A DNA stretch of 64,000 nucleotides from Afipia massiliensis (GTDB lineage: Bacteria > Pseudomonadota > Alphaproteobacteria > Rhizobiales > Xanthobacteraceae), in NCBI RefSeq assembly GCF_014203115.1, contig NZ_JACHIJ010000005.1, positions 124,001 to 188,000 of the forward strand. The letters run 5' to 3'. Below the pieces are notes generated by a model. That model worked only from the letters and a program-made list of their open reading frames with translations. It did no database searches and was not told where the DNA came from. This document shows positions 37,896 to 55,625 of the stretch, in pieces. Made by a program: the position numbers and the translations under genes. Each line of letters starts with the position of its first letter. The first letter of the stretch is position 1.

Positions 37896-37913
37896 GGGAT
37901 TTCGATCTGCGCT

Positions 37914-39101: not shown

Positions 39102-39119
39102 CGCCAAATTCGTCCAGCG

Positions 39120-40556: not shown

Positions 40557-40662
40557 GCGCACCTCCTAGATCGAAACACTTCCGACGTGCGCTTCAATTT
40601 TGTGAGCCGACCCTGAGAGCAGTTACCGTGGAAACGATCGCTGTGAGACTGTCTTCTCGGCT

Positions 40663-41346
40663 TCAAACCTTCGCGCCGAACATGTTCTTCCAGGATTCCG
40701 TGCCGGGTTTTGCTTCCCACTTTTTGGTGTCGGACATAACAGCCAGCCCCTCCTGCACCGCCGGACGAACCTTGATCGCGTCGAACCAGCGCTTGAGATT
40801 GGGATACGTCTCGAGCTCCTGCCCCTGCCATCGGTAGGGACGAATCCATGGAAAGGTCGCAATATCTGCGATCGAGTACTCACCGGCGAGATATTCGCGG
40901 TCTGCCAGGCGGCGATCGATCACGCCATACAGTCTGGCGGCCTCTTTCGTGTAACGCTCCACGGCATAAGGAATCTGCTCTGGTGCGTAGCGCCGAAAAT
41001 GATGAGCCTGGCCGAGCATAGGGCCGGCGCCGCCCATCTGAAACATCAGCCATTGAATGACCTCCATCCGTGCCCGCGGGTCGGATGGCAGCAGCTTGCC
41101 GGTCTTTTCAGCAAGGTACAGAAGAATGGCTCCCGACTCGAAAACCGGCAACGGCTTCCCGCCCGGGCCGTCGTGATCGACGATCGCCGGTATCTTGTTG
41201 TTCGGGCTGATCTTGAGAAACTCCGCGCCGAATTGATCACCCTTGGTGATGTCAATCGGCAGAACCCGATAATGCAGGCCGAGCTCGGCCAGCATTATCG
41301 TGATTTTGTATCCATTCGGCGTGGTCCAAAAGTAGAGGTCGATCAT
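40663..41346 (-). CDS. Glutathione S-transferase (YghU/YfcG-like)
   Basis: 227 aa. The thioredoxin-fold N-domain MIDLYFWTTPNGYKITIMLA, ISPNNKIPAIVDHDGPGG and PVFESGAILLYLAEKTGKLL gives the GSH site (IPAI cis-Pro and ESGA). The helical C-domain ends AIKVRPAVQEGLAVMSD. Enzymes of this group are disulfide-bond oxidoreductase-like GSTs. In the same operon as an AGPS-type oxidase and GlcDEF, and with a glutathione reductase gene in the same locus, a glutathione-dependent step in ether or acyl-CoA processing is possible, as proposed for PegF of PEG degraders. Confidence 0.88.
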   Translation of the reverse strand: MIDLYFWTTPNGYKITIMLAELGLHYRVLPIDITKGDQFGAEFLKISPNNKIPAIVDHDGPGGKPLPVFESGAILLYLAEKTGKLLPSDPRARMEVIQWLMFQMGGAGPMLGQAHHFRRYAPEQIPYAVERYTKEAARLYGVIDRRLADREYLAGEYSIADIATFPWIRPYRWQGQELETYPNLKRWFDAIKVRPAVQEGLAVMSDTKKWEAKPGTESWKNMFGAKV

Positions 41347-41390: not shown

Positions 41391-43028
41391 TTAGGCCTTA
41401 GGCTTGTCGAAGAGAATGCCCGGGTTGAGCACCCAGTTCGGATCAAGCTCGCGCTTGTTGGCCTGCATCATTCGGATGAAGCCCGGATCGATTTCCTTGT
41501 CATACCAAGGACGGAAACTGCGTCCGACAGCATGATGGTGCGTGATGGTGGCGCCGAGTTCCAGAAGGGCGTCGGAAGCAACCTTGTTCAACGCTGCGTA
41601 ATGCTCGATGTTCTTTTCGTGAGAAGACGGAGCCATGATGGAGTAGTACGGCGCCGGCCCATCCGGATAAAGGAACGAGAACCGACGGCAGACAATGCCA
41701 CCACCGCAAATCTTCTTCTCCGCCTCAGCTACCCGCCGCATGACTTCGGTGTCGAGCGCTTCGAACTTGTCCCACGTATAGGCCGTTTCGAAGGTAAAGC
41801 TGACGATACCCATCGCCGCACGAACGTGCATGAGATAAGGCAGATAGCGGAACTGGTTACGCCAGCTGCCCTGCGCGCCCGAGCGGCTGGTTTCGAGAGC
41901 ATCGGTGCCCGTGCCCGCCTTCTGCTTCACCGTACCGCCGTAATCCCGGCAGATTTCCAGAGAGCGATCCAGCCATGCATCGACCGGATGATCAGCCGAC
42001 TCATAACCGATCAGCAGCATCGATTCCGTGCCGTCGCCGGCCCCATAGAAGAAGGCGTCCTTCTCATCGAGGTAGCGGCAGTTTGCGGGATAAAGACCGG
42101 CCTGGGTGATCTGCCGAACGGCCTTCGCACCCTCGTAGAAGGTCTTGAATGAAACCGAGGCGTTGGCGCGGAACTTCACCCGGCCCTGCAGACGCATCCA
42201 CGCTTCGGTGATGATGCCAAGCGTACCTTCCGAGCCGATGAAGGCGCGATCGGGGCTGGGACCGGCGCCAGACGCCGGCAGTCGGCGGTTTGTGATCGTG
42301 CCGGTCGGCGTGACGACGCGCAGGCTTTCCACCATGTCGTCGATATGGGTCAGATGCGTCGCATAGTGACCGGACGAACGCGTCGCGATCCATCCGCCGA
42401 GGGTCGAGAATTCCCAGGACTGCGGAATGTGGCGCAGCGTGAAACCATGCGGCTTCAACTGCTCCTCGAGCGAAGGACCGAACGTGCCGCCCTGGATTCG
42501 GGCCGCGCGCGAAGTCGGATCGACTTCCAGAACGCGATTGAGATTCTCGAGGTCGATCGTGACCACGCCCTTGTAACTGCTATCATCCGGCGGATTGATG
42601 CCGCCCGTAACGCTCGATCCGCCGCCGAAAGGCACGGCCGCGTAGCCATTTTCACCGCACCAGTCGAGAACCGCGGCAATGTCCTTTTCGTCGCGAGGAT
42701 AGGCCACGACATCTGGCGGATTTGGATACTTGCGCTTGTAGATCATGGCCAGGTCGCGGAAGCTCTTGCCGTAGGTGTGAGCAACGCGATCCCATTTTTC
42801 CGTCGTGCAGAAGCTTGCAAGCGATGCCGGCGGCTTAATGCGCGGGGCACGGATCTCGATCTCGTCGAGGGTCGGATCCGGGAGAACTGTGAAATCGCTC
42901 ATGCCGAGGCGCTTCGCGACGCGCTCGTGCATCGACTTCACTTCTGACTCAGGGATGTCCTGGCCTTCGTAACCCCAGCTCCAGAACTTCCTTCGCTGCC
43001 CTTTTGGCATATTCATGGGTGCATTCAT
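41391..43028 (-). CDS. FAD-binding oxidase of the alkyl-DHAP-synthase type
   Basis: 545 aa. The N-terminus is RKFWSWGYEGQDIPESEVKS, then an AGPS-family PCMH-type FAD domain: PDVVAYPRDEKDIAAVLDWC, AAVPFGGGSSVTGGINPPDD, IPQSWEFSTLGGWIATRSSG then HYATHLTHIDDMV and AFIGSEGTLGIITEAWMRLQ. The C-terminal substrate part has GATITHHHAVGRSFRPW, with the His-rich active-site motif of AGPS enzymes. These enzymes act on the carbon next to an ether oxygen or on 2-hydroxy acids. Here it is a candidate for the ether-cleaving carboxylate dehydrogenase. First gene of the operon, under the operator at 43138. Confidence 0.85.
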   Translation of the reverse strand: MNAPMNMPKGQRRKFWSWGYEGQDIPESEVKSMHERVAKRLGMSDFTVLPDPTLDEIEIRAPRIKPPASLASFCTTEKWDRVAHTYGKSFRDLAMIYKRKYPNPPDVVAYPRDEKDIAAVLDWCGENGYAAVPFGGGSSVTGGINPPDDSSYKGVVTIDLENLNRVLEVDPTSRAARIQGGTFGPSLEEQLKPHGFTLRHIPQSWEFSTLGGWIATRSSGHYATHLTHIDDMVESLRVVTPTGTITNRRLPASGAGPSPDRAFIGSEGTLGIITEAWMRLQGRVKFRANASVSFKTFYEGAKAVRQITQAGLYPANCRYLDEKDAFFYGAGDGTESMLLIGYESADHPVDAWLDRSLEICRDYGGTVKQKAGTGTDALETSRSGAQGSWRNQFRYLPYLMHVRAAMGIVSFTFETAYTWDKFEALDTEVMRRVAEAEKKICGGGIVCRRFSFLYPDGPAPYYSIMAPSSHEKNIEHYAALNKVASDALLELGATITHHHAVGRSFRPWYDKEIDPGFIRMMQANKRELDPNWVLNPGILFDKPKA

Positions 43029-43137
43029 TGCCTCGCTCCTTGCTCCTCGCTCGTGTTGAACCGGAAAGCCAGCCCGACTGATTCATCTGTCCCGACAGTC
43101 GGGAGAAAAATCTTCGGTAATACACTGGCCCTTCCAA

Positions 43138-43152
43138 ATTGGTACGACCAAT
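43138..43152. promoter_or_regulatory. GntR-type operator a: ATTGGT-ACG-ACCAAT
   Basis: A perfect 6-3-6 palindrome upstream of the AGPS-type oxidase operon (43028 to 36570). The same half-sites recur at 46503, 48114, 53645, 53798 and 55484. The rest of 43029-43359 holds no gene. Confidence 0.8.
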
Positions 43153-43359
43153 AAGCTCCCGACCATGCTCTTTGTCAAGCGCATCTTCAGGCGTTGATCG
43201 AGAATTTCTTCATGGCCTGCAGGCCCTCATTGCAACGTCCGGGCTCCATCCGCTGACGCGGACGTAGCCAAGCGAGCCCGCCTCAGCGAGCCCCGCAAGG
43301 GATCTTCGGAATTCGATTTTGCGCGAAAAATCGCAAAGCCGGCCGATTGCCTACGTGGC

Positions 43360-44820
43360 TTAGCCGTTCATTTGGGTGACGAACTTGGTGTTCAAGTAGG
43401 CCTCCATGGCCTCTGTTCCACCCTCGGAGCCGTAACCGGAATCCTTGATGCCTCCAAACGGGGTTTCAGGCAGCGCAAGACCATGATGGTTTATCGACAT
43501 CATTCCGCTTTCGACCCCCGTGCTGATGGCACCAATGACGGCCGCCGACTTCGTGTAGGCATAGGCGGCGAGGCCAAATGGAAGACGATTTGCCTCCGCT
43601 ATGGCCTCATCGAGATCGGAGAAGGCGCTGATCGGAGCAACGGGACCAAACGGCTCCTCGTTCATGATGCGCGCGTTCAGCGGGACATCCGTGAGTACGG
43701 TCGGCTCGAAGAAGAATCCCTCGTTTCCTATTCGCTTGCCACCGGCTCTGATGCGGCCGCCGCGCGATGTGGCGTCGGCGATCAGAGCCTCCATCGCCTC
43801 AATACGGCGATGATTGGCCAGCGGACCCATCTGGCTCGCGGCGTCAAGACCGTTGCCGACAACCAGATCCTTTGCAGCCGATGTGAAGTGGTCGACAAAT
43901 TCCTCGTAGACGCTCTTGTGCACGATGAAACGCGTAGGCGAGACGCAAACCTGACCGGCGTTCCTGAACTTCGCCGCGGACAGCAGCCTCGCCGACTCCT
44001 TCACGTCCGCATCGCCGAACACCAGTGCCGGCGCATGCCCTCCCAGTTCCATCGTCACCCGCTTCATATGGCTTCCCGCCAGAGCGGCGAGTTGCTTGCC
44101 GACCTGGGTCGAGCCCGTGAACGAAATCTTGCGAATGAGCGAATGAGCAATCAGATACGAAGACACCTCCGCAGGAACGCCGAAGACCAGATTGAGCACG
44201 CCCGATGGCAGGCCGGCATCGGCGTAGGCCTGAACCAGGGCGGCGCAACTAGCCGGCGTTTCTTCGGGTCCCTTGAGAATTACGGAACAGCCGGCAGCGA
44301 TTGCAGCCGAGATCTTGCGGACAGCCTGATTGATCGGAAAATTCCACGGCGTGAACGCTGCCACCGGCCCGACCGGCTCCTTGATCACGATTTGCTGCAC
44401 CGCTCCGGAACGCGAAGGAATAGCGCGGCCGTAGGATCGGCGAGCCTCTTCGGCAAACCAGTCGACGATGTCCGCGCCGAGCAACACCTCCAGGTTCGCT
44501 TCCGCCAGGGGTTTCCCCTGCTCGAGCGTGAGAATGCGAGCGATTTCGCCGGCCCGCTCGCGCAACTTCTCGGCAGCCGCCCGCATGAGCTTGTAGCGGT
44601 CGAACGCCGATGTCTTGCGCCACGCATTGAAGCCGCGCCACGCGGAATCGAGCGCTCGATCGAGATCGTCGACAGACGCATGCGGAACACTCCCGATCGC
44701 AAGCCCGGTCGCTGGATTTAGCACTGCCCCGGATCGGCCTTGCGACCCGTCGCACCAAGCCCCGTCGATGAACATCTTGACGTCCGGGTAGGTCTGTTCC
44801 TGCTTCATGGCGATGTCCAT
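43360..44820 (-). CDS. NAD(P)-dependent aldehyde dehydrogenase (succinate-semialdehyde type)
   Basis: 486 aa, ATG 44820 with AAGG just upstream. Hallmarks: AAFTPWNFPINQAVRKISAA, the cofactor loop ISFTGSTQVGKQLA, the general-base Glu in VTMELGGHAPALVF and the nucleophile Cys in FRNAGQVCVSPTRFIV. NEEPFGPVAPI and TPFGGIKDSGYGSEGG complete the family pattern. The closest subfamily is GabD-like. It would oxidise the aldehyde made by the GMC oxidoreductase at 55626. Second gene of the unit beginning with the acyl-CoA ligase, 33 nt downstream of it. Confidence 0.9.
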   Translation of the reverse strand: MDIAMKQEQTYPDVKMFIDGAWCDGSQGRSGAVLNPATGLAIGSVPHASVDDLDRALDSAWRGFNAWRKTSAFDRYKLMRAAAEKLRERAGEIARILTLEQGKPLAEANLEVLLGADIVDWFAEEARRSYGRAIPSRSGAVQQIVIKEPVGPVAAFTPWNFPINQAVRKISAAIAAGCSVILKGPEETPASCAALVQAYADAGLPSGVLNLVFGVPAEVSSYLIAHSLIRKISFTGSTQVGKQLAALAGSHMKRVTMELGGHAPALVFGDADVKESARLLSAAKFRNAGQVCVSPTRFIVHKSVYEEFVDHFTSAAKDLVVGNGLDAASQMGPLANHRRIEAMEALIADATSRGGRIRAGGKRIGNEGFFFEPTVLTDVPLNARIMNEEPFGPVAPISAFSDLDEAIAEANRLPFGLAAYAYTKSAAVIGAISTGVESGMMSINHHGLALPETPFGGIKDSGYGSEGGTEAMEAYLNTKFVTQMNG

Positions 44821-44853
44821 TGGCCTTCGATGGGATTGAACGATCTGGAATGA

Positions 44854-46395
44854 CTAGACAGAAAGCGCCGATGCTTCGGCGTACTGCTTCAAATCATGCT
44901 TTCTGATCTTGCCGTTTGGCGCGACCGGCAGCTGCTGCATCACGATGATCTGCTGAGGCTTCTTGTATCGGGCCAGCTGTCCTTCGATGAACGTGAACAG
45001 GTCACTGGTCTCGACGGAGACTCCAGGAACGGGCTCCACAAATGCGATGATTTCCTCGTTGCCCTCGACCGATCGCCCGACGACTGCAGAGTTGAGGACG
45101 TTCGGATGCGTATTGAGAACCGCTTCGATCTCGGGCGGATACACATTGAACCCCGAGCGAATGATCAATTCCTTTGATCGGCCCTGTACGATCAATGCGC
45201 CACTCGCATTGCGGCTGACAATATCGCCGGTCTTCAAATAGCCCTGCTCATCGATAACCCCTGCAGTAAGCTCCGGCTGACCATAATAGCCAAGCATGAC
45301 GTTTGGTCCACGTACAAGAAGCTCGCCCGGCAGGCCGTCCTCAACCTCATCACCGTTCGCTCCGACAATCTTGATCTGAACTCCGGGGATGGGGGGACCA
45401 ATGTTGACTTCGTCGCTGCCCATTGCGTACTGGGTGCGACTGATCGTCGGCGAGGTTTCGGTGAGACCATAACCGTTGTGAAGAACGACCCCAAACACAC
45501 GCTCGACGTTTTGACGCAACGAAAGGTCCAGCGGAGCGGTGCCGGTGTAAACATATCGGAGCCTGTTCGGTGTGAGCTGAAGACCCGCCTGGTCGACGTG
45601 AGCGACGATACGCGACAGCAACGCCGGCACGGCCGTAAATATCGTAAGAGTCTTGTTCACGACGGCTTCGATAGCTTGCGTGAGCGAGAATCTTGGCATG
45701 ATTTTCAGATGCGCGCCTGCGAACAACATGCCTTGCATGAGTGTAAGCCCATACGAATGGGAAATCGGCATCACGCACAGCGAGACGTCGTCCGAACGAA
45801 TCGTGTCGGTCCTTTTCCCCCGGCATGCGACAAACGCGAGACTGCGATGGCTAAGCATCACTCCCTTTGGGCGTCCGGTGGTTCCCGTCGTATAGATGAC
45901 AACGGCGACCTGCCGGGAAGGATCCAGGTGAACCCGCTCCGCAACACTATCCGCATCAAGCTTTCCGACCTTCACCTCACCTATTCCGGTGAACCGCTCA
46001 ATGTCTGCATCTCGGCGACACGCATGAGCATCTGCGTCGGGTGAAACGGCATGCGTATAGAACACACGCCGCGGGCGGCAGTCGCGTTCGATCAAATCCA
46101 GTTCATGCTGGCTCAGTCGTGCATTTGTGATGACCGCCCAGGCGTCAAGCCGGCTCGATGCATATAGTAATACGATCGCTGCGATTGAGTTTTCACATAC
46201 GATCATGACGCGATCGCCCGGCCGAATACCGAGCCGGCTCATGTCGATGGCGGCAAGCTCGACTGTATCGATCAGGCGACGATAGGACCAATCGACACCA
46301 TGCTCGTCGGTAAACGCGATCCGGGAAGCATCCCCCTTTGCCCCCTCATCAAGTATCCCGTGAATGCGGGCCGGCAAGTTTGATACCAAATCCAT
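44854..46395 (-). CDS. Acyl-CoA ligase (AMP-binding enzyme)
   Basis: 513 aa from ATG 46395 (AGG 8 nt upstream); the frame is open to GTG 46482, adding 29 residues without domain match. Core motifs: phosphate loop VIYTTGTTGRPKGVMLSHRS, NGYGLTETSPTISRTQYAMG, GYLKTGDIVSRNASGALIVQ then GRSKELIIRSGFNVYPPEIE, and the catalytic Lys in PVAPNGKIRKHDLK. It activates a carboxylate as CoA thioester. By analogy with PegE it could act on PEG-carboxylate-like acids. The unit (ligase, aldehyde dehydrogenase) lies under the operator at 46503. Confidence 0.88.
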   Translation of the reverse strand: MDLVSNLPARIHGILDEGAKGDASRIAFTDEHGVDWSYRRLIDTVELAAIDMSRLGIRPGDRVMIVCENSIAAIVLLYASSRLDAWAVITNARLSQHELDLIERDCRPRRVFYTHAVSPDADAHACRRDADIERFTGIGEVKVGKLDADSVAERVHLDPSRQVAVVIYTTGTTGRPKGVMLSHRSLAFVACRGKRTDTIRSDDVSLCVMPISHSYGLTLMQGMLFAGAHLKIMPRFSLTQAIEAVVNKTLTIFTAVPALLSRIVAHVDQAGLQLTPNRLRYVYTGTAPLDLSLRQNVERVFGVVLHNGYGLTETSPTISRTQYAMGSDEVNIGPPIPGVQIKIVGANGDEVEDGLPGELLVRGPNVMLGYYGQPELTAGVIDEQGYLKTGDIVSRNASGALIVQGRSKELIIRSGFNVYPPEIEAVLNTHPNVLNSAVVGRSVEGNEEIIAFVEPVPGVSVETSDLFTFIEGQLARYKKPQQIIVMQQLPVAPNGKIRKHDLKQYAEASALSV

Positions 46396-46502
46396 TTTAT
46401 CAGCCTGTTTCCTGGTCGCTGCTAAAATCAGCGCTCCATCCGCGTCGCTGGGATAAATCGGCACCCCGGATGCAACCGCCACTCAAGAGCCAGCAACCTC
46501 AT

Positions 46503-46517
46503 ATTGGTAAGACCAAT
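46503..46517. promoter_or_regulatory. GntR-type operator b: ATTGGT-AAG-ACCAAT
   Basis: A perfect 6-3-6 palindrome upstream of the acyl-CoA ligase/aldehyde dehydrogenase unit, followed by a further TTGGTC half-site at 46518-46523. Same consensus as 43138 and 53798. Confidence 0.8.
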
Positions 46518-46615
46518 TTGGTCTGTTCAGTCGTGTGCTGTCAAGACGTATTTGGCCGGCCAAGATCAACCTCGCCCGTCGCCGGGCGCGTCCGACGGGG
46601 ATGGATTCCTGGCAG

Positions 46616-48061
46616 TTATTCTGCCGCCTCGCGGACGTAACGCTGGGTCGGCGTGCGCATGGTCACGAGTTCCTCTGCCGAGGTAGGATGCAGCGCCATG
46701 GTGGCGTCGAAGTCGGCTTTGGTCGCTTTCATCTTGACCGCGATAGCGACAGCCTGAACGATCTCAGCAGCCTCCGGACCGACGATGTGGCAGCCGAGAA
46801 CACGGTCAGATGTTCCATCGACGATCAGTTTCATTAGAACGCGGCTTTGGCTGCCCGACAGCGTTGCCTTGATCGGCCTGAAATCGGTCTTGTAAATATC
46901 CACGTGGGTGAACTGCGCCCTTGCCTCGGCTTCGGTCAGCCCGACCGTTCCAACCTGCGGCTGTGAGAACACCGCGGTCGAGATCTCGGCATGATCGACA
47001 CGCACTGGCCGCTTGCCAAACACAGTGTCGGCGAAAGCATGCCCTTCGCGTATCGCAACTGGCGTCAGATTGATGCGGTGGGTGACGTCGCCCACCGCAT
47101 AAATGTGCGGCACATTGGTTTGCGAGAAGGCATCGACGGCAATGCCGCCGTTGGCCGGATTGAGCGCCACGCCTGCCTTTTCAAGCCCAAGACCCTTGAC
47201 GTTGGGATGACGGCCGATGGCAAACAGCACTTGGTCAGCAGCAATCGTCGATCTCCCAGACAGGTGCGCGGCGAAGCCCTCCCGTTGCTTCTCGACCTTG
47301 CTCACTGTGGTGCCCGTGAGAACTGTAATACCCGCCTTCTCGACCTCACTACGGACATGCGCGCGGACATCCTTGTCGAACCCCCGCAGGATATTATCGC
47401 CGCGATAGACCAAGGTCACGTCAGCGCCGAGACCTGCGAAAATGCAGGCGCACTCCAGTGCGATGTAGCCACCGCCCTGGATTACGATGCGCTTTGGGAA
47501 TGCCGGCAGGTGGAAAATCTCATCCGACGAAATGACATGCTCGATGCCGGGAATTGCCGCGCCGTGGCTCGGCGTACTGCCGGTGGCGATCAGGATGTAT
47601 TTCGGCCGTACCGTTTCGCCGGTCGACAAGCGCAGCGTGTGCGCGTCCTCGAACACCGCGCGCGCCTTGACCACCCGCGCGCCGGCCTTCTCGGCATTGC
47701 CGGTGTAGGCGGCCTCCAGCCGGGCGATTTCCTTGTCCTTGTTGGCGACCAGCGTCGCCCAGTCGAACGTCGCTGACGGGATGTTCCATCCGAACCCCGC
47801 CGCGTCCTTGATCTCCTCGTGGACATGCGAAGCATAAACGAACAGCTTCTTGGGCACGCAGCCGCGGATCACGCAAGTGCCGCCCATGCGGTACTCTTCG
47901 GCAAGCATGACCCTGGCGCCGTAATTGGCTGCAATCCGCGCGGCGCGAACGCCGCCCGAGCCACCGCCGATCACAAACAGGTCGACGTCGTAATCAGCCA
48001 CGACACCTTGCGCTTTGCCGCTCTGTCCCGACATTTCCAAATGCTGCAGAATCATCATCAA
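46616..48061 (-). CDS. gor: Glutathione-disulfide reductase
   Basis: 481 aa FAD/NADPH enzyme. The FAD dinucleotide fold is DLFVIGGGSGGVRAARIAAN; the redox disulfide is GGTCVIRGCVPKKL. The NAD(P) fold is RIVIQGGGYIALECACIFAG and the C-terminal interface motif is MALHPTSAEELVTMRTPTQR, containing the active-site His. ATG 48061 has AGG upstream; ATG 48034 is an alternative. It keeps glutathione reduced, which fits the GST in this locus. Transcribed divergently from the GntR regulator with an operator-like sequence between them. Confidence 0.93.
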   Translation of the reverse strand: MMMILQHLEMSGQSGKAQGVVADYDVDLFVIGGGSGGVRAARIAANYGARVMLAEEYRMGGTCVIRGCVPKKLFVYASHVHEEIKDAAGFGWNIPSATFDWATLVANKDKEIARLEAAYTGNAEKAGARVVKARAVFEDAHTLRLSTGETVRPKYILIATGSTPSHGAAIPGIEHVISSDEIFHLPAFPKRIVIQGGGYIALECACIFAGLGADVTLVYRGDNILRGFDKDVRAHVRSEVEKAGITVLTGTTVSKVEKQREGFAAHLSGRSTIAADQVLFAIGRHPNVKGLGLEKAGVALNPANGGIAVDAFSQTNVPHIYAVGDVTHRINLTPVAIREGHAFADTVFGKRPVRVDHAEISTAVFSQPQVGTVGLTEAEARAQFTHVDIYKTDFRPIKATLSGSQSRVLMKLIVDGTSDRVLGCHIVGPEAAEIVQAVAIAVKMKATKADFDATMALHPTSAEELVTMRTPTQRYVREAAE

Positions 48062-48113
48062 CCTGATACGAAAGAACTATACGCAGGATGATTGTTATCC
48101 CAACGCCGCCCTT

Positions 48114-48140
48114 TTCGGTCTTACCAATTCGGTATACCAG
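48114..48140. promoter_or_regulatory. GntR-type operator c in the gor/gntR divergent promoter
   Basis: TTCGGT-CTT-ACCAAT at 48114-48128 is an imperfect copy of the ATTGGT-N3-ACCAAT palindrome, followed by GGTATACC at 48131-48138. Its position between gor and the regulator gene suggests autoregulation. Confidence 0.55.
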
Positions 48141-48374
48141 TCTTATATGTTCGGCACACCGGAATCAAGCGAGCGGCCGTGCGACGTCCGATTTAGGGCG
48201 AGACGTTATCTGGCGGCGGGACTCGCACCGGTGCGGAAAGCACCTGTAATATCATCGCCTGTCGAAATAGAGTGAACATCACTCAGATTCGTGGCTATTG
48301 GCATGTGCCCGGGCGCGCAACGGCTTAGCAGACAAGCTCCCCCCGGGAACGCAGGCTGGAAAGAGTAGACACAA

Positions 48375-49106
48375 ATGACCGAACGAAATCGAACCGAAAA
48401 GCCTGAGCCTCCCTCGAACGCCATCGGAAAAATCCTTTCGTTCATCCGTGAGCGCCGCTACCAACCCTCGGAACGTCTGCCGTCTGAGCGCGACTTCGCG
48501 GAGAAGTTCGACACAAGTCGGGGCGCCGTCCGCGAGGCGCTGGCTGCTCTCGAAGCCATGCGCGTCATCGAGAGGCGGCCCAACTCGGGCATATATCTGC
48601 GGAACTCGGACGAAAGCAGCATCGAAGCTCTCGTTCTTCACGCCGAATCCGGTCTTCCGTTCCAGGCCAACGAAATTGCCGATGTCTTCGAAGTGCGACG
48701 CATGCTCGAAGTGCAGGCCGCCCGGTTGGCCTGCACACGCCGAACACCTGACAACATCCGCGATCTTCGCGCAATTTTGAGCGACACCGAGAAGCGCCTT
48801 GCCAAGAAGCAGACGATCGAGCGGGAAGATGAGGCATTTCATCTGGCCATCTTCGCTGCCACCAAGAATGATATCCTGTTGCGCGTGGTAAAATCATTCT
48901 ATGAGCTATCCAGACAGCGCCGCCGCGTCTATTTCGCCGATCACAGCCGCGGTCGCCGTTCCTATGAACATCACTGCGAAATCCTCGACGCCATTGAAGG
49001 GCGGCGCGTCGGCCAGGCAGAGCAGAAAATGAACGAACACCTGTCCCAGACCATCGAAACCTGGCAGACGCTGTTGGGAGAGCCAAAGATACCTGCAAGA
49101 CGATAG
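48375..49106 (+). CDS. FadR/GntR-family regulator, probable controller of the ether-glycol-like regulon
   Basis: 243 aa. The winged helix is ERRYQPSERLPSERDFAEKF, then DTSRGAVREALAALEAMRVI and ERRPNSGIYLRN. The C-terminal FCD domain has VFEVRRMLEVQAARLA, EDEAFHLAIFAATKND and SYEHHCEILDAIEGRRVGQA, with the Asp/His residues that usually hold a metal and carboxylate ligand. FadR-group proteins bind palindromes of the TGGT-N3-ACCA kind, just what is found at six promoters around this gene. A carboxylic-acid intermediate is the likely inducer. Confidence 0.9.
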   Translation: MTERNRTEKPEPPSNAIGKILSFIRERRYQPSERLPSERDFAEKFDTSRGAVREALAALEAMRVIERRPNSGIYLRNSDESSIEALVLHAESGLPFQANEIADVFEVRRMLEVQAARLACTRRTPDNIRDLRAILSDTEKRLAKKQTIEREDEAFHLAIFAATKNDILLRVVKSFYELSRQRRRVYFADHSRGRRSYEHHCEILDAIEGRRVGQAEQKMNEHLSQTIETWQTLLGEPKIPARR

Positions 49107-49203
49107 ACTTTCGTCAAAGATCCATCCGAGCAATCGTTCAAGTCGATTCCGGCACGGTGGCGCACAGAACTGATCTCTTGCCCGGACGGGATCTGGAACG
49201 TCC

Positions 49204-50190
49204 CTACCCTTTGAGGGCGCCTGCCGTAAGTCCTGCGACGAAGTACCGGTAGCAGAACGTAAAGATGACAAACAGCGGCAGCGCTATAAGGGATGCGCCG
49301 GCAAGAATTTCGCCCCAACGCAGGTCCTGCGCTCCCAGCATTGATGCCAATGCTACAGGCAGCGTCTTGTTCTGATCACTCATAATCAGGATGAGAGCGA
49401 ACACATAGTCGGCCCAGGACAGCAGGAACGAGAAGATACCGACCGTAATTAGGCCGGGTGCGGAAAGCGGCAACACCACCTTAATGAACGCGCCGAATTG
49501 CGAGCACCCGTCGACCATTGCCGCTTCTTCCAGATCAAATGGCATCGACTTGAAGAAGCCCCACAAAAGCCAGACGCCCAACGGGAGCGAGATTGCGAGG
49601 TGAGCAATCAGCAGACCCCACAGGCTGTCGGAAAGCCCGACCATGCGAAACAAGGCTGACATCGGGATAACCAGCATCAACGGCGGGAACATATAAGCAA
49701 ACAACATCGAGGCAACCAGTGTCGTCTTGCCGCGGAACCGCAGCCGCGTCGCGCCGTAGGCAATGAACGCCGAAAGCGTTGTGGCAACGATGATCGTTGC
49801 CATCGCCATCAGCGCGCTGTTGAAGAAATTGGCCGTGTAGTTCGTCAGCTCCAGCAGCGACTTATATGAAGAGAGATCTGGCGGCCAAAACGCCAACGAC
49901 GTGTCCAGAAACAGCCGCTGCGGGGGCCGAAGGCTGGATATGATCATCCAGTAAATCGGAAAAAACGAATAGATGCAGATCACAACGACAGCAGCATAGA
50001 GACCGACACGTCCGGCAATCTGCTTGATCGGCTTGCTCGCTAACCCGAACAACTTTTGTTCCGATGCCGGCGTTGGCGCGTTCTGCGGCAAGCGATCGAA
50101 CCGGGATGTGTTGCGAAGGAGCCGCTCCTGCCGCGGATCCGCAACAGCAGCAACGACGGAGAGGTGCGAATTTTGTTGTGTCACTGTCAT
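49204..50190 (-). CDS. ABC transporter permease, MalG/UgpE type
   Basis: 328 aa with six membrane segments after a 50-residue polar N-terminus. The EAA loop that docks the ATPase is EEAAMVDGCSQFGAFIKVVL then PLSAPGL. YSFFPIYWMIISSLRPPQRL at the first helix is typical of CUT1 (sugar/glycerol-3-phosphate) permeases. The gene order on the reverse strand is ATPase, binding protein, permease 1, permease 2; it overlaps permease 1 by 4 nt. Confidence 0.9.
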   Translation of the reverse strand: MTVTQQNSHLSVVAAVADPRQERLLRNTSRFDRLPQNAPTPASEQKLFGLASKPIKQIAGRVGLYAAVVVICIYSFFPIYWMIISSLRPPQRLFLDTSLAFWPPDLSSYKSLLELTNYTANFFNSALMAMATIIVATTLSAFIAYGATRLRFRGKTTLVASMLFAYMFPPLMLVIPMSALFRMVGLSDSLWGLLIAHLAISLPLGVWLLWGFFKSMPFDLEEAAMVDGCSQFGAFIKVVLPLSAPGLITVGIFSFLLSWADYVFALILIMSDQNKTLPVALASMLGAQDLRWGEILAGASLIALPLFVIFTFCYRYFVAGLTAGALKG

Positions 50191-51059
50191 CGGCCTTGCT
50201 TTGCTTCGTCGATCGGGAAGAACCGCAGATAGATCAGGATAATGGTCGCCAGAAGCGCAAACGAGATTGTCGCAACCGCCGCCCCGCCTCCAAGATCGAA
50301 TTCCAGAAACGCTCTTCGATAGGCAAGGGTCGGGAGCGTCTCGGTCTGATTCAGCGGGCCTCCCTTGGTCAGCAGCCAGATCACGTCAAACTTGTTGAAC
50401 ATCCAGATGCCTCTCAGCAGAATGACCACGATCAATACAGATCTGAGACCCGGCAGAGTGATGTGCCAGAACTGCTTCCAGGCACCGGCACCGTCGACCC
50501 GAGCTGCTTCGTAAAGCTGGACCGGAATTGTTTGAAGGCCGGCCAGCACGCAGGTCACCACAAAAGGAGTCCATATCCATACGCTGACAAGAACAATCGT
50601 TCCCTTCGCAGTTGCCGAGTTGGCGCCCCAATCGAACATGCTAGATCCGAACGACGCCAGGATACTTTTGATCAATCCGTAATTGGGATCGAGCATCCAT
50701 TGTGCGATGAGGCACGCAACGACTGTCGGAAGAAAGTATGGAACGATGGACAGCGCTCGAACGATTGTTTGCCCCACGAATTGACGGTTCAGAACGAGTG
50801 CAATGCCCACGCCGAGCGTAACCTGCAACACGATTGCGGAAATTGAGATCGTTATCCCGTTTAACAGTGCGTCCCAAAAATTACTGTCCTCCAGGACAGA
50901 GAGATAATTTCCAAATCCAACCCACCGCGGCGGAGCAATAAAGGACTCCGCCGCGTAGAACGAGAGCTTGATGGAGTACAGGAGTGGTCCGCCAACGATC
51001 GCGCCGACTATCAGAACGCCCCCGACGAACAAGCCGATGATTCGCCAATCCTGCCTCAT
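50187..51059 (-). CDS. ABC transporter permease, MalF/UgpA type
   Basis: 290 aa, six membrane helices. The start IGLFVGGVLIVGAIVGGPLL is the first helix; the EAA loop is YEAARVDGAGAWKQFWHITL then PGL. DVIWLLTKGGPLNQTETLPT is a well-known CUT1 permease signature. It forms the membrane channel with the protein encoded downstream. It lies 27 nt after the solute-binding protein gene. Confidence 0.9.
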   Translation of the reverse strand: MRQDWRIIGLFVGGVLIVGAIVGGPLLYSIKLSFYAAESFIAPPRWVGFGNYLSVLEDSNFWDALLNGITISISAIVLQVTLGVGIALVLNRQFVGQTIVRALSIVPYFLPTVVACLIAQWMLDPNYGLIKSILASFGSSMFDWGANSATAKGTIVLVSVWIWTPFVVTCVLAGLQTIPVQLYEAARVDGAGAWKQFWHITLPGLRSVLIVVILLRGIWMFNKFDVIWLLTKGGPLNQTETLPTLAYRRAFLEFDLGGGAAVATISFALLATIILIYLRFFPIDEAKQGR

Positions 51060-51086
51060 GAGGCACCTACCTTTTCGTCAACGATT

Positions 51087-52448
51087 TCAGCCGAGTTTCC
51101 GGATGCGATTGGCCGCCGTCTTCACGCAATCGGCCGACGACATGTTCTTGAGCACCTTGTTCTGCAGCATCTCGGGCATGACATTCGTATCGAATACCTT
51201 GCACGGCCGCAGATCGATCGACGGACCGATCAGGTCGACCGACGAGAGCTTGACCTTGCTGTCCGGATCGATGAACGACTTCATCTGCATCATCGTTGCC
51301 CAATGCTTCTGAATCATCGGGTGTTTCTTCCAGCGCGGATCCTCGTAGATGTCCAGGCGCACCGGCTGGAAGTTCATCCAGGCCGAATGCAGCCAGTCGA
51401 TGTAATGCTCATCGATAAACCATTTGAGGAACTTGAGCGTCTCCTCGCTTTGTTTAGTCTTGAATGCCACGAACCCGTCGAAGGCAAATGGCAGCGCCTT
51501 TTGCTTGCCGGTGCTATCTGGTGCGGCAAAGATTCCATACTTGTCCGCAAGATCCGGATTTCGTGCTTCAAGCGCCTCGACCACACGACCGGAGTAAAGG
51601 GTATGCGCGACCTTTCCGGTGACGAAGAGGCTCATCAGTTCGGCATAACCGACCGTGTTCAATCCCGGTGGCATGGTCTTGTAGAGTTCACCGTAAAGAT
51701 CGAGGAAGCGCCCGGCCCGATCCGCATTCTCGGGAGCATCAAGAACAACGTTCCACTTGTCGTCGTAGAACTGCGGGGCCTCCGCGAACAGGTTGCCGAA
51801 GCTCGCCCAATTGGTCGCACTGTCGCTCGCCAGCGGCATCACGCAACCGCCACGCTCGATGTTGCCATCCTTTGAAACGGTCAACGCCCGGCAGTTTTCG
51901 AGATATTCCGCCCATGTATTAGGGATCTTGAGGCCCTTCTCGGCGTAGAGATCCTTTCGATAGTAACAGGTCACCAGATTGTAGTCGTAGGGATAGAACC
52001 AGTTTTCTCCCTGATACTTCCAGGCGCCCATCTGCCCCCAGGAATGCTGCTTCACAAGATCGGTCACCGGAAGAAGATGACCACCGCGGGCATACTGAAG
52101 AATATGGGCGATATAGCCTTGGGTGGCGAGATCATACGGAGTACCCGAATTGATCGCTGCCATGGTCTTCGCGTAGGCGCCGCTGATCGGCGTCGAATCG
52201 ACGATGATCTTGACACCGAACTTGCTCTCATACTCGTTGCACGCGTTTCGCAGCACGGTCTGGCTATCGGCCGCGGTCTCATTGTTCAGGAATCGGAGGG
52301 TCACTCCGGCTTGGGCGTTCACGTACGGAGCCGCCAGAGAGCTCGTCGCGCCAATGACTGCTCCCGCGGATGTTTTAAGAAAGTCTCGCCGGCTAAAACC
52401 GAAAGACTTACCCTTGGACTTCCATTGGTTTGAATTGCGCCTGGTCAT
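51087..52448 (-). CDS. Tat-exported solute-binding protein of the ABC importer
   Basis: 453 aa from ATG 52448, preceded by GGGAGGGA; the open frame to 52475 is not needed. A twin-arginine signal (FSRRDFLKTSAGAVIGATSS) ends near APYVNAQA. The mature part (VTLRFLNNETAADSQTVLRN) is a family 1 extracellular solute-binding protein: WFYPYDYNLVTCYYRKDLYA, VTGKVAHTLYSGRVVEAL and LPFAFDGFVAFKTKQ. Its start lies inside the 3' end of the ATPase gene (41-nt overlap). Ligands of this family are oligosaccharides or polyols; an oligo-glycol ether would suit the locus. Confidence 0.9.
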   Translation of the reverse strand: MTRRNSNQWKSKGKSFGFSRRDFLKTSAGAVIGATSSLAAPYVNAQAGVTLRFLNNETAADSQTVLRNACNEYESKFGVKIIVDSTPISGAYAKTMAAINSGTPYDLATQGYIAHILQYARGGHLLPVTDLVKQHSWGQMGAWKYQGENWFYPYDYNLVTCYYRKDLYAEKGLKIPNTWAEYLENCRALTVSKDGNIERGGCVMPLASDSATNWASFGNLFAEAPQFYDDKWNVVLDAPENADRAGRFLDLYGELYKTMPPGLNTVGYAELMSLFVTGKVAHTLYSGRVVEALEARNPDLADKYGIFAAPDSTGKQKALPFAFDGFVAFKTKQSEETLKFLKWFIDEHYIDWLHSAWMNFQPVRLDIYEDPRWKKHPMIQKHWATMMQMKSFIDPDSKVKLSSVDLIGPSIDLRPCKVFDTNVMPEMLQNKVLKNMSSADCVKTAANRIRKLG

Positions 52449-53568
52449 GATCTTCCCTCCCTTTGTTAATTTCATTTATTGATTTTGATTGCCTCAAAGC
52501 CTTCCCGTTTTCGCGCGAGAACAAATGCAACCGCTCCGCAGGCAGAACGACGGGGATTTTGTCGCCGGCCGCGAGCACGTCGTCGCGCGCAAATACCGCG
52601 CGGAATTTCTGACCGAAGATCGTTCCCAGCACATATGTCTGTGCACCGATTTGCTCTACCAAGCTGACGATCATCTCGATGTCCGATGCCGTCTCGGCAC
52701 GAACGATATGCTCTGGTCTGATGCCAACGGTGACGCTCTTCTCGGTCTCGATAAACTCGCCGTTCTGCAATCCGAGTTGTAGCTCGCCGGAACGAACCTT
52801 CAGACCGCCACCGTCGCGGAGCAATTCACCCTCAACCAGGTTCATCTCGGGCGAACCGATGAAGGCCGCCACAAAGACATTCTCCGGCCGGTCGTAGAGA
52901 TCCAGCGGCCGCCCGGCTTGCTGGATCCAGCCATCGCGCATGATGACAATCCGGTCACCGAGCGTCATGGCTTCGACTTGGTCGTGAGTCACGAAGATCA
53001 TCGTGGCTCCCAGCCGGGCATGCAGCGTCGCGATTTCTTCGCGGGTCTTCACGCGCAGCTTGGCGTCCAGATTGGAAAGGGGTTCATCGAGCAGAAAGAC
53101 GTCCGGGTCTCGGACGAGCGCGCGGCCAAGCGCAACCCGCTGCATCTGGCCACCCGAGAGCTGGCGCGGTTTTCGCTCGAGCAAGGGATCAAGACCGAGG
53201 CTCGACGCCGCGCTGCGCACACGACGATCGATCTCGTCTTTCGGTTCTCCGCGCACGCGAAGACCAAACGCCATGTTGTCGTAGACGGTCTTTTGCGGAT
53301 AGAGCGCGTAGTTTTGGAATACCATCGCAATATTGCGATCTTTCGGCGGAAGCGCGGTCACGTCCCGCCCGCCGATCATGATCTTGCCAGATGTCACATC
53401 ATCGAGGCCGGCAAGCATGCGCAAGGTGGTCGATTTCCCGCAGCCGGACGGCCCGACAAAAACGACCAGCTCTCCGTCGGCAATATCCAACGAAAAATCC
53501 TGCACCGCCCATGGCCCTCGGTCTCCGCCAAAGGATTTCGATACATTCTGGAGAGTGACTCGCGCCAT
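52408..53568 (-). CDS. ABC transporter ATP-binding protein, UgpC/MsmK type
   Basis: 386 aa. Walker A VFVGPSGCGKSTTLRML, Q-loop MVFQNYALYPQKTVY, signature RQLSGGQMQRVALGRALV, Walker B DVFLLDEPLSNLDAKLR and H-loop FVTHDQVEAMTLG are all intact. The C-terminal TOBE part (VGIRPEHIVRAETASDIEMI) is typical of CUT1 ATPases. First gene of the four-gene importer operon, with an operator-like palindrome at 53645 upstream. Confidence 0.93.
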   Translation of the reverse strand: MARVTLQNVSKSFGGDRGPWAVQDFSLDIADGELVVFVGPSGCGKSTTLRMLAGLDDVTSGKIMIGGRDVTALPPKDRNIAMVFQNYALYPQKTVYDNMAFGLRVRGEPKDEIDRRVRSAASSLGLDPLLERKPRQLSGGQMQRVALGRALVRDPDVFLLDEPLSNLDAKLRVKTREEIATLHARLGATMIFVTHDQVEAMTLGDRIVIMRDGWIQQAGRPLDLYDRPENVFVAAFIGSPEMNLVEGELLRDGGGLKVRSGELQLGLQNGEFIETEKSVTVGIRPEHIVRAETASDIEMIVSLVEQIGAQTYVLGTIFGQKFRAVFARDDVLAAGDKIPVVLPAERLHLFSRENGKALRQSKSINEINKGREDHDQAQFKPMEVQG

Positions 53569-53644
53569 ACAGCAAACCTCGCTTCGCGTTGCCTCTAGTT
53601 TTTATCACCATGCGCAGAATTCTGACTGCACAGCTGTCTTCCAA

Positions 53645-53659
53645 ATTGGATAGACCATT
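53645..53659. promoter_or_regulatory. GntR-type operator d: ATTGGA-TAG-ACCATT
   Basis: An imperfect copy of the palindrome, followed by TTGGTC at 53660-53665. It lies 77 nt before the ABC-importer ATPase start. Confidence 0.6.
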
Positions 53660-53797
53660 TTGGTCTTCCATACGTCTCCGCTTGTCAACTGTCAAGCAAT
53701 CAGCGGTCCGTACCCATCGGAACCTCGACCATTGAGCGGACGCTTGCGCCGAAACCTGGAGGACCCGGAACCCGTTGCCAATCTTGTTACAGCCGAT

Positions 53798-53825
53798 ATT
53801 GGTTTGACCAATTTGGACGATCCAA
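53798..53825. promoter_or_regulatory. Double GntR-type operator e upstream of the CoA-transferase gene
   Basis: ATTGGT-TTG-ACCAAT (53798-53812, perfect) and TTGGA-CGA-TCCAA (53813-53825, perfect 5-3-5) lie back to back, 70 nt before ATG 53897. Two adjacent palindromes suggest cooperative binding of two dimers, possibly also controlling the divergent importer operon. Confidence 0.75.
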
Positions 53826-53896
53826 TTATGGTTTAAATGGAAGGCGCGGAGTTTGTCGGAAATAGATCGCGTCACATAAACTGACAAGGAAGCGAC

Positions 53897-55165
53897 ATGG
53901 CTGGACCTCTGGTGGGCTACCGAGTACTCGATCTCTCAAGAATTCTCGCAGGACCGTGGTTAGGCCAGCTTCTTTCGGATCTCGGTGCCGAAGTCTGGAA
54001 AATCGAACGTCCCGGCACCGGCGACGACACACGGCAATGGGGACCGCCATTCCTGAAGGACAGTGACTCCAACGACACAACAGAAAGCGCCTATTTTCTC
54101 AGTGCTAACCGCGGCAAGTATTCGATCTGCGTCGACATCGCGACCGAGGAAGGCAGCGCAATCGTGCGCTCACTGGCGCAAAGTGCCGACATCGTGATCG
54201 AGAACTACAAGGTCGGCGACATGACCCGGTACGGGCTGGACTATGAGTCGCTGCGAAAACTTAAATCCGATATCATTTACTGCTCTATCACCGGCTATGG
54301 CCAAACCGGTCCAATGAAAGATGTCGCGGGATACGACATGGCGATCCAGGCAATCGGCGGCCTGATGAGCATTACGGGTGAAAGCGACGATATGCCGGGC
54401 GGAGGCCCACAGAAAGTCGGCGTTCCCATCGTCGATATTCTCACCGGGATGTACAGCGCCACGGGTGTAATTTCAGCGTTGCTGCACCGCGAGCGCACCG
54501 GCGAGGGTCAACACATCGACATGGCTCTGCTCGATGTTCAGGTTTCGGTACTTGCCAACCAGAACATGAATTATCTCACGACTGGGACTCCACCTAAACG
54601 CTCCGGTAATGCACATCCGAATATCGTGCCTTATCAGGTGTTCAAGACAAAGGATGGCTCGTTTGTGCTGGCTGTAGGAAACGATCAGCAATTCAGAAAA
54701 TTCTGTGTAACGGCGGGATTGACGGAACTAGCCACCGACACCCGCTTCCTCACCAACACCGATCGGCTTCACAATCGCGACCAGCTGATCCCACTTCTGG
54801 ACGTCCATCTGGCAACACAGACGACACATCACTGGATATCAGCATTTGAGCCAGTCGGAGTTCCTTGCGCGCCGATCAATCGCCTGGACCAGGTGTTTGC
54901 TCATCCGCAGGTGATCCATCGGGAACTGCAGATCAATCTGCCTCATCCTTCCGGCGCCATCGCGCCTCTCGTCGGCAACCCGATCAAGTTTTCTAAAACG
55001 AAAATCGAATATTCGAAGAGCCCGCCGTTGCGGGGCGAGGACACCGAACATGTCCTCAAGACTGTACTCAAACTTGATCAGGCACAGATTCAGCGCCTGA
55101 ACGAGAGCAGAATCGTCGATACCGGCACGCATCCTAAGCGCTCCTCACCAGGCCGGCTCGAATAA
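53897..55165 (+). CDS. CaiB/BaiF family III CoA-transferase
   Basis: 422 aa. It begins MAGPLVGYRVLDLSRILAGP then WLGQLLSDLGAEVWKIERPG, the typical opening. The catalytic Asp region follows: DIVIENYKVGDMTRYGLDYE, IYCSITGYGQTGPMKDVAGY then DMAIQAIGGLMSITG. It moves CoA between carboxylic acids by a covalent aspartyl intermediate. It may activate or release an acid intermediate of the pathway, alongside or instead of the acyl-CoA ligase. It carries the strongest operator pair of the locus. Confidence 0.9.
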   Translation: MAGPLVGYRVLDLSRILAGPWLGQLLSDLGAEVWKIERPGTGDDTRQWGPPFLKDSDSNDTTESAYFLSANRGKYSICVDIATEEGSAIVRSLAQSADIVIENYKVGDMTRYGLDYESLRKLKSDIIYCSITGYGQTGPMKDVAGYDMAIQAIGGLMSITGESDDMPGGGPQKVGVPIVDILTGMYSATGVISALLHRERTGEGQHIDMALLDVQVSVLANQNMNYLTTGTPPKRSGNAHPNIVPYQVFKTKDGSFVLAVGNDQQFRKFCVTAGLTELATDTRFLTNTDRLHNRDQLIPLLDVHLATQTTHHWISAFEPVGVPCAPINRLDQVFAHPQVIHRELQINLPHPSGAIAPLVGNPIKFSKTKIEYSKSPPLRGEDTEHVLKTVLKLDQAQIQRLNESRIVDTGTHPKRSSPGRLE

Positions 55166-55292
55166 GCGGGCGCGCTACTCGCAGCACCCCCGACGCATCA
55201 CTGCGGTCGCGCTTATTGCATCTGCCTCGAAATCGGCGGCGCTATTTCTCTGGCAAGCGAAGCTCGGACAAACTCGGACGAATGCGACCTAC

Positions 55293-55442
55293 CTAATGAC
55301 CGAGGGCCCAGACCGCCTTTTGAAATGCCGTTCTGTCTTGGGGAGACATGGTCTTGTCCCAATGCTCGATCCTCTTCGGCGCCCATAGAAGAACGACAAT
55401 AGCCGACGCGATAAGCGAAGCTGTCAACACCCGAGTGATCAT
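55293..55442 (-). CDS. Small membrane protein (49 aa)
   Basis: ATG at 55442 with GAGAGG 8 nt upstream. It reads MITRVLTASLIASAIVVLLW, then a basic APKRIEHWDK and a short amphipathic tail ending in WALGH. There is one membrane helix at residues 4-20. I do not recognise it. It lies on the opposite strand to the CoA-transferase and GMC genes, starting 42 nt from the operator at 55484, so it may be expressed from a divergent promoter in the same regulon. Tentative because of its size. Confidence 0.5.
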   Translation of the reverse strand: MITRVLTASLIASAIVVLLWAPKRIEHWDKTMSPQDRTAFQKAVWALGH

Positions 55443-55483
55443 CGAAACACCTCTCTGTTGACGCCCGAACCCCGGCCACTATA

Positions 55484-55498
55484 ATTGGACATACCAAA
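55484..55498. promoter_or_regulatory. GntR-type operator f: ATTGGA-CAT-ACCAAA
   Basis: An imperfect copy of the regulon palindrome, followed by ATGGTACTCCAA at 55499-55510. It lies about 130 nt before the GMC oxidoreductase start and next to the small reverse ORF. Confidence 0.6.
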
Positions 55499-55625
55499 AT
55501 GGTACTCCAAGACGATCAAAAAACAACGGCAAAAATTCGTCACTCGTATCGGAAAAGCATCCGGCGAGCTCTTCAAGCACACCAGCCACGTTACCCAGCC
55601 GCGGGCGTTCCCAGGGGGATTCGAA

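Follow-up and report, generated by a model that had tools for sequence, protein, structure and literature searches.

Among the closest known systems to the one described here is that of the Sphingopyxis PEG operon and the PEG-carboxylate dehydrogenase and glutathione S-transferase (GST) genes (PMC4675939 and the accessible part of PMC7299911). A set made up of nearly the same genes is found on a plasmid of the dioxane degrader Xanthobacter dioxanivorans YN2 (NZ_CP063363). On dioxane, the positional counterparts of glcDEF and of two aldehyde dehydrogenase (ALDH) genes were upregulated in YN2, and RT-qPCR was applied to a selection of the most strongly upregulated genes that included GE05990, by position the FAD oxidase gene. 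The two ALDH genes are called constitutive in that paper though they were upregulated, and the changes of 1.3- to 4.3-fold are modest for a tight repressor. On the regulatory side, operators of the FadR subfamily of GntR regulators consist of TKGT and ACMA with 3 nt between them in most cases, and additional half-sites occur in these regulons 7 to 12 nt from the site center, according to the accessible part of Suvorova et al. (PMC4494728). The Escherichia coli PdhR box is AATTGGTnnnACCAATT, and PdhR also binds at glcD in that organism, as given in the accessible part of PMC7660256. Among the matches listed in our literature search, which took in few subscription journals, none described a GntR regulator of PEG breakdown.

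The 64-kb stretch of Afipia massiliensis DNA analyzed here (the window) carries a gene cluster whose predicted enzymes resemble a PEG or ether-carboxylate route. On the minus strand lie genes for a glcF-like iron-sulfur subunit with CCG domains (36570 to 37895), a glcE-like FAD subunit of uncertain start (37914 to 39107), a glcD-like FAD subunit (39120 to 40562), a GST (gst; 40663 to 41346), and an AGPS-type FAD oxidoreductase (agps; 41391 to 43028), presumed to be of the ether-cleaving PEG-carboxylate dehydrogenase type. These are followed, on the same strand, by genes for an SSADH-like ALDH (43360 to 44820), an AMP-binding acyl-CoA ligase (44854 to 46482), and a glutathione reductase of uncertain start (gor; 46616 to 48061) that scores above the TIGR01424 cut-off. 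An ABC importer is encoded on the minus strand by two permease genes (49204 to 50190 and 50187 to 51059), a solute-binding protein gene (51087 to 52475), and a UgpC-like ATPase gene (52408 to 53568). The plus strand carries gntR (48375 to 49106), a family III CoA-transferase gene (caiB; 53897 to 55165), and a PEG-dehydrogenase-like GMC oxidoreductase gene (gmc; 55626 to 57260), which likely starts at the ATG at 55626, the mechanical open reading frame (ORF) start at 55485 overlapping an operator. The protein encoded downstream (57401 to 58195, plus strand) has no Pfam or NCBIfam match, is 42% identical to a Sphingopyxis-operon protein annotated as a MaoC dehydratase, and is a candidate regulon member at most.

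Related enzymes are encoded in a plasmid operon of Sphingopyxis macrogoltabida EY-1, with identities of 82.4% for the GMC oxidoreductase (the EY-1 enzyme would be PegA, judging from gene context), 73.5% for the FAD oxidoreductase (74.8% to that of X. dioxanivorans), 72% for the ligase, and 61% for the GST. The EY-1 cluster has an AraC regulator gene and MFS and TonB transporters, whereas the window cluster instead has GntR, the ABC importer, glcDEF, gor, and the CoA-transferase, and the operator described below was not found upstream of 10 genes in the EY-1 plasmid cluster. The YN2 cluster includes a GntR that is 64% identical, but it differs in gene order and has a second ALDH, and its ALDHs and glc proteins are only 34 to 58% identical to those of the window.

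A scan of the window for ATTGGT-N3-ACCAAT found the palindrome without mismatches at 43138, 46503, and 53798 and with two mismatches at 48114, 53645, and 55484, all promoter sites, which confirms the three perfect and three imperfect copies that a preliminary description had placed at six named promoters. One more two-mismatch copy of this 15-mer, at position 38976, falls within glcE. With up to three mismatches allowed, the window has 36 matches compared to 18.25 expected (standard deviation, 4.02), a count reached in 0 of 100 shuffles. The candidate operators of the FAD-oxidase/gst/glcDEF operon (43138 to 43152) and the ligase/ALDH operon (46503 to 46517), both on the minus strand, are perfect and stand behind TTGACA. 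The one between gor (minus strand) and gntR (plus strand) (48114 to 48128) and that of the ABC importer operon (53645 to 53659, minus strand) each have two mismatches. On the plus strand, the CoA-transferase site (53798 to 53812) is perfect and the GMC oxidoreductase site (55484 to 55498), with two mismatches, overlaps TATAAT.

All six sites have a weaker neighboring palindrome, with scores of 5 to 8 of 10 and the two centers 14 bp apart. These neighbors lie at 43125 to 43137 (7 of 10), 46518 to 46530 (7 of 10), 48129 to 48141 (TCGGTATACCAGT; 5 of 10, where a 2-nt spacer gives a better reading), 53660 to 53672 (7 of 10), 53813 to 53825 (TTGGACGATCCAA; 8 of 10), and 55499 to 55511 (6 of 10). 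The one beside 53798 is the second 5-3-5 site that had been described there, TTGGA-CGA-TCCAA. An extra TTGGT occurs at +8 to +12 from the site center and falls within the half-site range given for FadR-subfamily regulons in the accessible part of Suvorova et al. (PMC4494728). Beyond those half-sites, the distal half (+16 to +20) is also enriched, with a z of 8.5 in the 37 related sites, which include the second agps copy of contig C4, and a z of 2.7 in the six window sites alone (7 of 1,000 shuffles). Since the distal half is enriched too, several promoters probably carry a second complete dimer site. Thirteen operators were counted across the two full clusters, those of the window and C4. In one motif-positive genome without the gntR orthologue (G095), a tandem site adjoins a distant GntR gene (30% identity), and the tandem design is therefore not private to regulators of the type encoded at 48375.

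The gntR product, a presumed repressor, has an N-terminal GntR winged helix (PF00392, 7.3e-15) and a C-terminal all-helical FCD effector domain (PF07729, 8.3e-28), so its earlier assignment to the FadR group holds. Its structure model (pLDDT, 82) gave Foldseek matches that include PmiR, DhdR, NanR, VanR, and FadR, with TM scores of 0.39 to 0.55 among the matches listed. Residues D152, H156, H200, and H222 are invariant in all 12 proteins aligned, a pattern known from metal-binding FCD domains. Equivalence to named regulators was rejected, as the protein scored below every curated NCBIfam cut-off considered (in bits, PdhR, 74 versus 330; LldR, 99 versus 311; GlcC, 71 versus 301; NanR, 123 versus 260). 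The six window sites fit the FadR-subfamily form TKGT-N2/3-ACMA. The 15-mer, which forms the operator core, matches the E. coli PdhR box exactly, and the motif alone therefore does not name the protein that reads it. The likeness to PdhR extends to the operator core and to membership in the FadR subfamily; the present case differs in that the targets found belong to one local catabolic cluster and to the copy of it, and in that a second palindrome stands 14 bp away.

In the 5.33-Mb genome, the perfect 15-mer occurs in five places, three in the window, one in the cluster copy on contig C4, and one inside an ORF, and a further four places have one mismatch. Six of these nine lie in promoters of the window cluster or its C4 copy; the remaining three (C2:773666, C1:212392, and C1:960903) fall inside mechanical ORFs. 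The bare 15-mer with up to two mismatches proved too loose as a genome-wide matrix (92 places versus 40 for a reversed control). An extended 19-mer with up to two mismatches occurs in 10 places, all in the two clusters, and the GMC operator at 55484 matches it only when three mismatches are allowed. The palindrome is thus not common genome-wide in its perfect or extended form, and at up to two mismatches the extended motif gave no place outside the two clusters that would tie in glyoxylate enzymes elsewhere in the genome. Between the window and the C4 copy, 80 of 90 bases are identical inside the 15-mers compared to 932 of 1,478 outside them (Fisher P = 7e-8), and the operators overall are more conserved than their flanks; the agps promoter taken alone shows no excess identity (11 of 15 versus 227 of 316). 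The protein encoded at 57401 is 86% identical in the C4 cluster. Besides this second full cluster, the genome has a third cluster that is only partial, and both carry a paralogue of gntR (89% and 83%). Of the earlier proposal of one coregulated locus, the shared regulon is supported by the motif and its co-occurrence with gntR, but the single locus is not, because of these two further clusters. The paralogues probably read the same sites, and since the same operators stand in the second cluster copy, a single regulon probably answers to two or three paralogous repressors.

Comparisons of genomes and of plasmids also show the motif occurring together with the gntR orthologue. Among 198 genomes of the family, at least one extended site with at most one mismatch is present in 5 of 6 genomes with gntR, namely, the one that contains the window and four others from the same genus, versus 7 of 192 without it (P = 2e-6). 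In the sixth, a perfect 13-mer precedes the FAD-oxidase gene. Two of the seven motif-positive genomes lacking gntR were inspected, G095 and G123, the latter of the same genus and with a single perfect 13-mer between mechanical ORFs. At least one 15-mer with up to two mismatches is present in 16 of 17 gntR loci from named records (L031 to L047), several of them near-identical copies, the remaining locus (L046) being a 4.4-kb contig. In four plasmid clusters with gntR, the extended motif with up to three mismatches lies upstream of 11 of 34 annotated genes (nine distinct sites), compared to 0 of 19 genes in two plasmid clusters of related enzymes without gntR and 0 of 265 shuffled pieces. The YN2 cluster has it only at the agps and abc/caiB promoters and thus has fewer operators than the window.

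The operator lies over the −10 hexamer behind a TTGAC −35 element in all 8 agps promoter rows, all 9 ligase rows, and 7 of the 10 gmc rows; the rows were hand-chosen, many of them from relatives. Of the −10 hexamers, only that at gmc (TATAAT) is good, those at agps (GCTTAT) and ligase (CAAATT) being poor; as the scan took the best hexamers near each site, weak hexamers mean little. TTGATT was found in four of six gor rows. No promoter recurred consistently among the chosen rows for gntR, abc, and caiB, and the abc scan mostly landed on the neighboring caiB operator. In the FAD-oxidase, ligase, and GMC promoters, the operator overlaps the −10 region downstream of TTGAC, which suggests repression. 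Autoregulation does not appear to be general, because the gor/gntR site reaches only a three-mismatch match in loci L036 and L038.

These observations bear on several other explanations. That the palindromes are a meaningless product of chance or composition is very improbable: weak matches are indeed common, as the 92 places at two mismatches indicate, but perfect and extended sites concentrate in cluster promoters and show conservation from one copy to the other and from species to species, and the window shuffles, the extended-motif confinement, the ORF check, and the copy conservation together led us to reject this explanation. It is also quite improbable that the sites are read by a different FadR-type protein of the host (PdhR-, LldR-, or GlcC-like), which would link the cluster to central carbon metabolism and leave the local gntR a secondary role. 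The identity of the 15-mer to the PdhR box, the binding of E. coli PdhR at glcD reported in the accessible part of PMC7660256, and nine other GntR matches in the genome (E values up to 0.001) would fit such a regulator, but it should have sites elsewhere, whereas the extended motif is confined to the two clusters and tracks the gntR orthologue.

An activator or dual regulator in place of a plain repressor is improbable: the accessible part of PMC7660256 lists GlcC, which controls glycolate use and belongs to the FadR subfamily, as a dual regulator, but the agps, ligase, and gmc operators lie where binding normally blocks polymerase. It is unlikely, though less so, that the regulon is real and the pathway serves another hydroxy acid or glycol and not ethers. 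The low identity of the ALDH to its counterparts in the Sphingopyxis operon (35%) and in Xanthobacter (34%) would agree with this; the 61 to 82% identity of the other four enzymes to the EY-1 operon and the similar set on the plasmid of a dioxane degrader argue against it.

We therefore consider it highly probable that the FadR-subfamily repressor encoded at 48375 uses the six palindromes as its operators; it would coordinate the ether-pathway operons and be released by a pathway acid. The predicted FadR-subfamily regulon is real and of a known kind; binding, repression, effector, substrate, and cooperativity are what we infer. A GntR dimer on ATTGGT-N3-ACCAAT would cover the −10 region of the operons, with the weaker palindrome 14 bp away available to a second dimer or, at the least, providing one more half-site, and the promoters would be shut without substrate. 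A pathway carboxylic acid (an ether carboxylate, glycolate, or similar) may bind the FCD domain, so that the protein leaves and the operons open together. The ABC importer would then bring in the substrate, the GMC oxidoreductase and ALDH would convert glycol-ether alcohols to acids, the ligase and CoA-transferase would provide CoA activation, the FAD oxidase with GST and glutathione reductase would carry out ether scission, and glcDEF would oxidize glycolate.

A glycol-ether gene set (PEG, dioxane intermediates) thus appears to be switched by one repressor through a shared, paired DNA mark. More tentatively, the two full clusters and the partial one, each with a closely related FadR-type repressor of its own, may share a two-dimer operator in a cross-wired, redundantly repressed regulon that travels as a unit between orders of Alphaproteobacteria and would hold the first named PEG/dioxane-intermediate repressor there; this wider reading is possible but somewhat doubtful. 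The extended motif can be used to find further pathway members in unannotated genomes, and the repressor together with its operator could serve as a biosensor for ether carboxylates or glycolate. The analysis also offers a candidate regulator and operator, open to direct testing, for a pathway whose probable targets are persistent glycol ethers such as PEG and dioxane intermediates.

A single GntR regulon over the whole locus had been proposed in the preliminary description from ATTGGT-N3-ACCAAT palindromes, and the observation behind it was confirmed and that prediction supported. A 15-mer search recovered the palindromes at all six positions, perfect at 43138, 46503 and 53798 and with two mismatches at 48114, 53645 and 55484, and all six lie upstream of the operons that had been named. 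The gene calls agreed with Pfam and NCBIfam for the AGPS-type FAD oxidase (agps), GST, glcD, glcE, ligase, aldehyde dehydrogenase (ALDH), glutathione reductase (gor), GntR with an FCD domain, ABC importer, CoA-transferase III (caiB) and GMC oxidoreductase (gmc), and a separate check upheld glcF. For the GMC gene, ATG 55626 is the most likely start, since in most copies and relatives the alignment begins only near residue 45 of the longer, automatically called frame. A 551-amino-acid plus-strand frame antisense to glcF/glcE (36933-38588) lacks family matches and is probably not a gene, though relatives keep a comparable frame open in part. An HpaB-type (4-hydroxyphenylacetate 3-hydroxylase family) gene adjoins the cluster (33650-35128, plus strand). 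The window also encodes two related DNA methyltransferases, 53% identical (3452-4768 and 59306-60634), the latter with a ParB-N domain followed by an N6_N4_Mtase domain.

The expectation that the motif would be rare in the genome (5.33 Mb, 19 contigs) held for perfect and extended sites and failed for the bare 15-mer, which with up to two mismatches occurs at 92 places versus 40 in a reversed control. Perfect 15-mers were found at five places and single-mismatch copies at four; six of these nine are promoters in the window cluster or in its second copy on contig C4, and three fall within automatically called frames. Far sharper is the extended, asymmetric word TTGGTNNNACCAATTTGGT: with at most two mismatches it occurs at 10 places genome-wide, all within the two clusters, five in each. 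Three mismatches, the level at which the window's GMC operator matches, add 24 places both inside and outside the clusters.

Alignment of 37 sites, drawn from this genome and from related loci, on the main palindrome showed an extra TTGGT at +8 to +12 that matched at 4.32 of 5 bases (1.88 in shuffles) and, less strongly, an ACCAA at +16 to +20 that matched at 2.59 (1.29 in shuffles), although the sites share descent and z-scores overstate their independence. The six window sites alone gave 4.33 and 2.33. The offset of the second palindrome peaks at 14 bp and has a shoulder at 13 bp (35 rows, one misplaced), and extra half-sites 7 to 12 nt away are described as a trait of FadR-subfamily sites (PMC4494728). 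In a promoter scan that took the best-fitting hexamer near each site, a TTGAC -35 box stood, in gene orientation, 16 to 18 bases upstream of the operator-overlapped hexamer in 8/8 agps, 9/9 ligase and 7/10 gmc rows; a predicted operator over the hexamer behind TTGAC is the geometry of a repressor. That hexamer reads TATAAT at the window gmc but fits poorly at agps and ligase. The gor promoter carries TTGATT in 4/6 rows, and the same scan found no consistent boxes at the gntR, abc and caiB promoters. Other regulators may share the tandem design, since a distant FadR-type GntR gene (30% identity) in another record adjoins a tandem TTGGTCAGACCAAATTGGCCTGACCAA spaced at 14 bp and preceded by TTGACA (L057:7994-8020).

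The second copy of the locus (C4, about 66000-90621) has the gene set and order of the window, with proteins mostly 85 to 96% identical; its gst adjoining agps aligns with the window gst over 91 residues only (74%). An additional agps-type FAD oxidase and gst copy in the C4 cluster (C4:65661-68022) has its own predicted operator (C4:68121-68139). A third, partial set lies at C4:50665-57025 (ligase 74%, gntR 83%, GMC 79%). The window and the second copy agree at 80 of 90 operator bases versus 932 of 1478 flanking bases, so that the operators have been kept, with no excess over flanks at the agps promoter taken alone. Because the DNA-binding regions of the paralogous GntR proteins are nearly identical in sequence, they would likely cross-read one another's sites.

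Curated cutoffs ruled out PdhR, LldR, GlcC and NanR as identities for the GntR encoded at 48375. Its predicted structure (pLDDT 82, pTM 0.68) matches FCD-type GntR structures including PmiR, DNA-bound DhdR and NanR, with TM scores of 0.39 to 0.55 among the matches listed. All 12 GntR sequences compared, at identities down to 29%, share D152, H156, H200 and H222, residues that fit the metal site of FCD domains. Glycolate or an ether carboxylate would suit as a candidate effector, because carboxylic acids are among the small ligands reported for FadR-subfamily proteins (PMC4494728).

A gntR ortholog (E ≤ 1e-60) is present in 6 of 198 genomes of the Xanthobacteraceae. The extended motif (at most one mismatch) occurs in five of these six versus 7 of the 192 without the ortholog (Fisher P = 2e-6), the five being this genome and four of its genus and thus not independent. 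The sixth, G048, has a perfect 13-mer upstream of its FAD-oxidase gene. On plasmids, a GntR of at least 60% identity occurs on six records, the same six that carry a GMC of 66 to 69%, of which three Aminobacter records resemble one another and those of Xanthobacter and Ancylobacter have one GntR accession in common. No such GntR was found on the other four of the best 10 GMC plasmids (Sphingopyxis and three Cupriavidus; GMC 75 to 82%). With up to three mismatches, the extended motif was found in 11 of 34 upstream regions (9 distinct sites) of four gntR-bearing plasmid clusters, in two of which gntR lies outside the stretch compared, versus 0 of 19 in two of the four plasmids without such a GntR and 0 of 265 shuffled pieces. 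Among seven records (L038, L039, L040, L041, L042, L043 and L044) named as Afipia, Bradyrhizobium japonicum, B. diazoefficiens, Reyranella aquatilis and metagenome bins, cluster DNA is 98 to 100% identical over most of 15 to 20 kb, which would reflect either recent horizontal transfer or contaminated assemblies. An agps-type gene of Afipia sp. 1NLS2 (L047:4435-6064) aligns as two pieces overlapping by a few bases and is possibly frameshifted.

The plasmid cluster of Sphingopyxis macrogoltabida EY-1, which carries an AraC gene, resembles the window in its GMC (82%), FAD oxidase (73.5%), ligase (72%) and GST (61%). In Sphingopyxis, PegA and PegC are reported to oxidize PEG, and PEG-carboxylate dehydrogenase to cut the ether to give glyoxylate (PMC7299911); from gene context, we infer that the EY-1 genes encode these enzymes. 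Xanthobacter dioxanivorans YN2 has a plasmid with nearly the whole gene set and a 64% identical GntR. On dioxane, YN2 is reported to upregulate GE05986-05988 (glcF, glcE, glcD) and the aldehyde dehydrogenase genes GE05991 and GE05994 by 1.3- to 4.3-fold, with GE05990 among the most upregulated genes picked for RT-qPCR (PMC8508750). The order of these numbers suggests that they belong to the plasmid cluster, and GE05990 would by position be the FAD oxidase. The YN2 proteins are only 58% (glcD), 44% (glcE) and 34% (ALDH) identical to those of the window, and both aldehyde dehydrogenases are termed constitutive in that report (PMC8508750).

This kind of system is already known, because the predicted operator core is the PdhR box. 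The present analysis adds the extended double operator, as predicted from sequence, its proposed link to ether catabolism and a duplicated regulon that is probably cross-wired.
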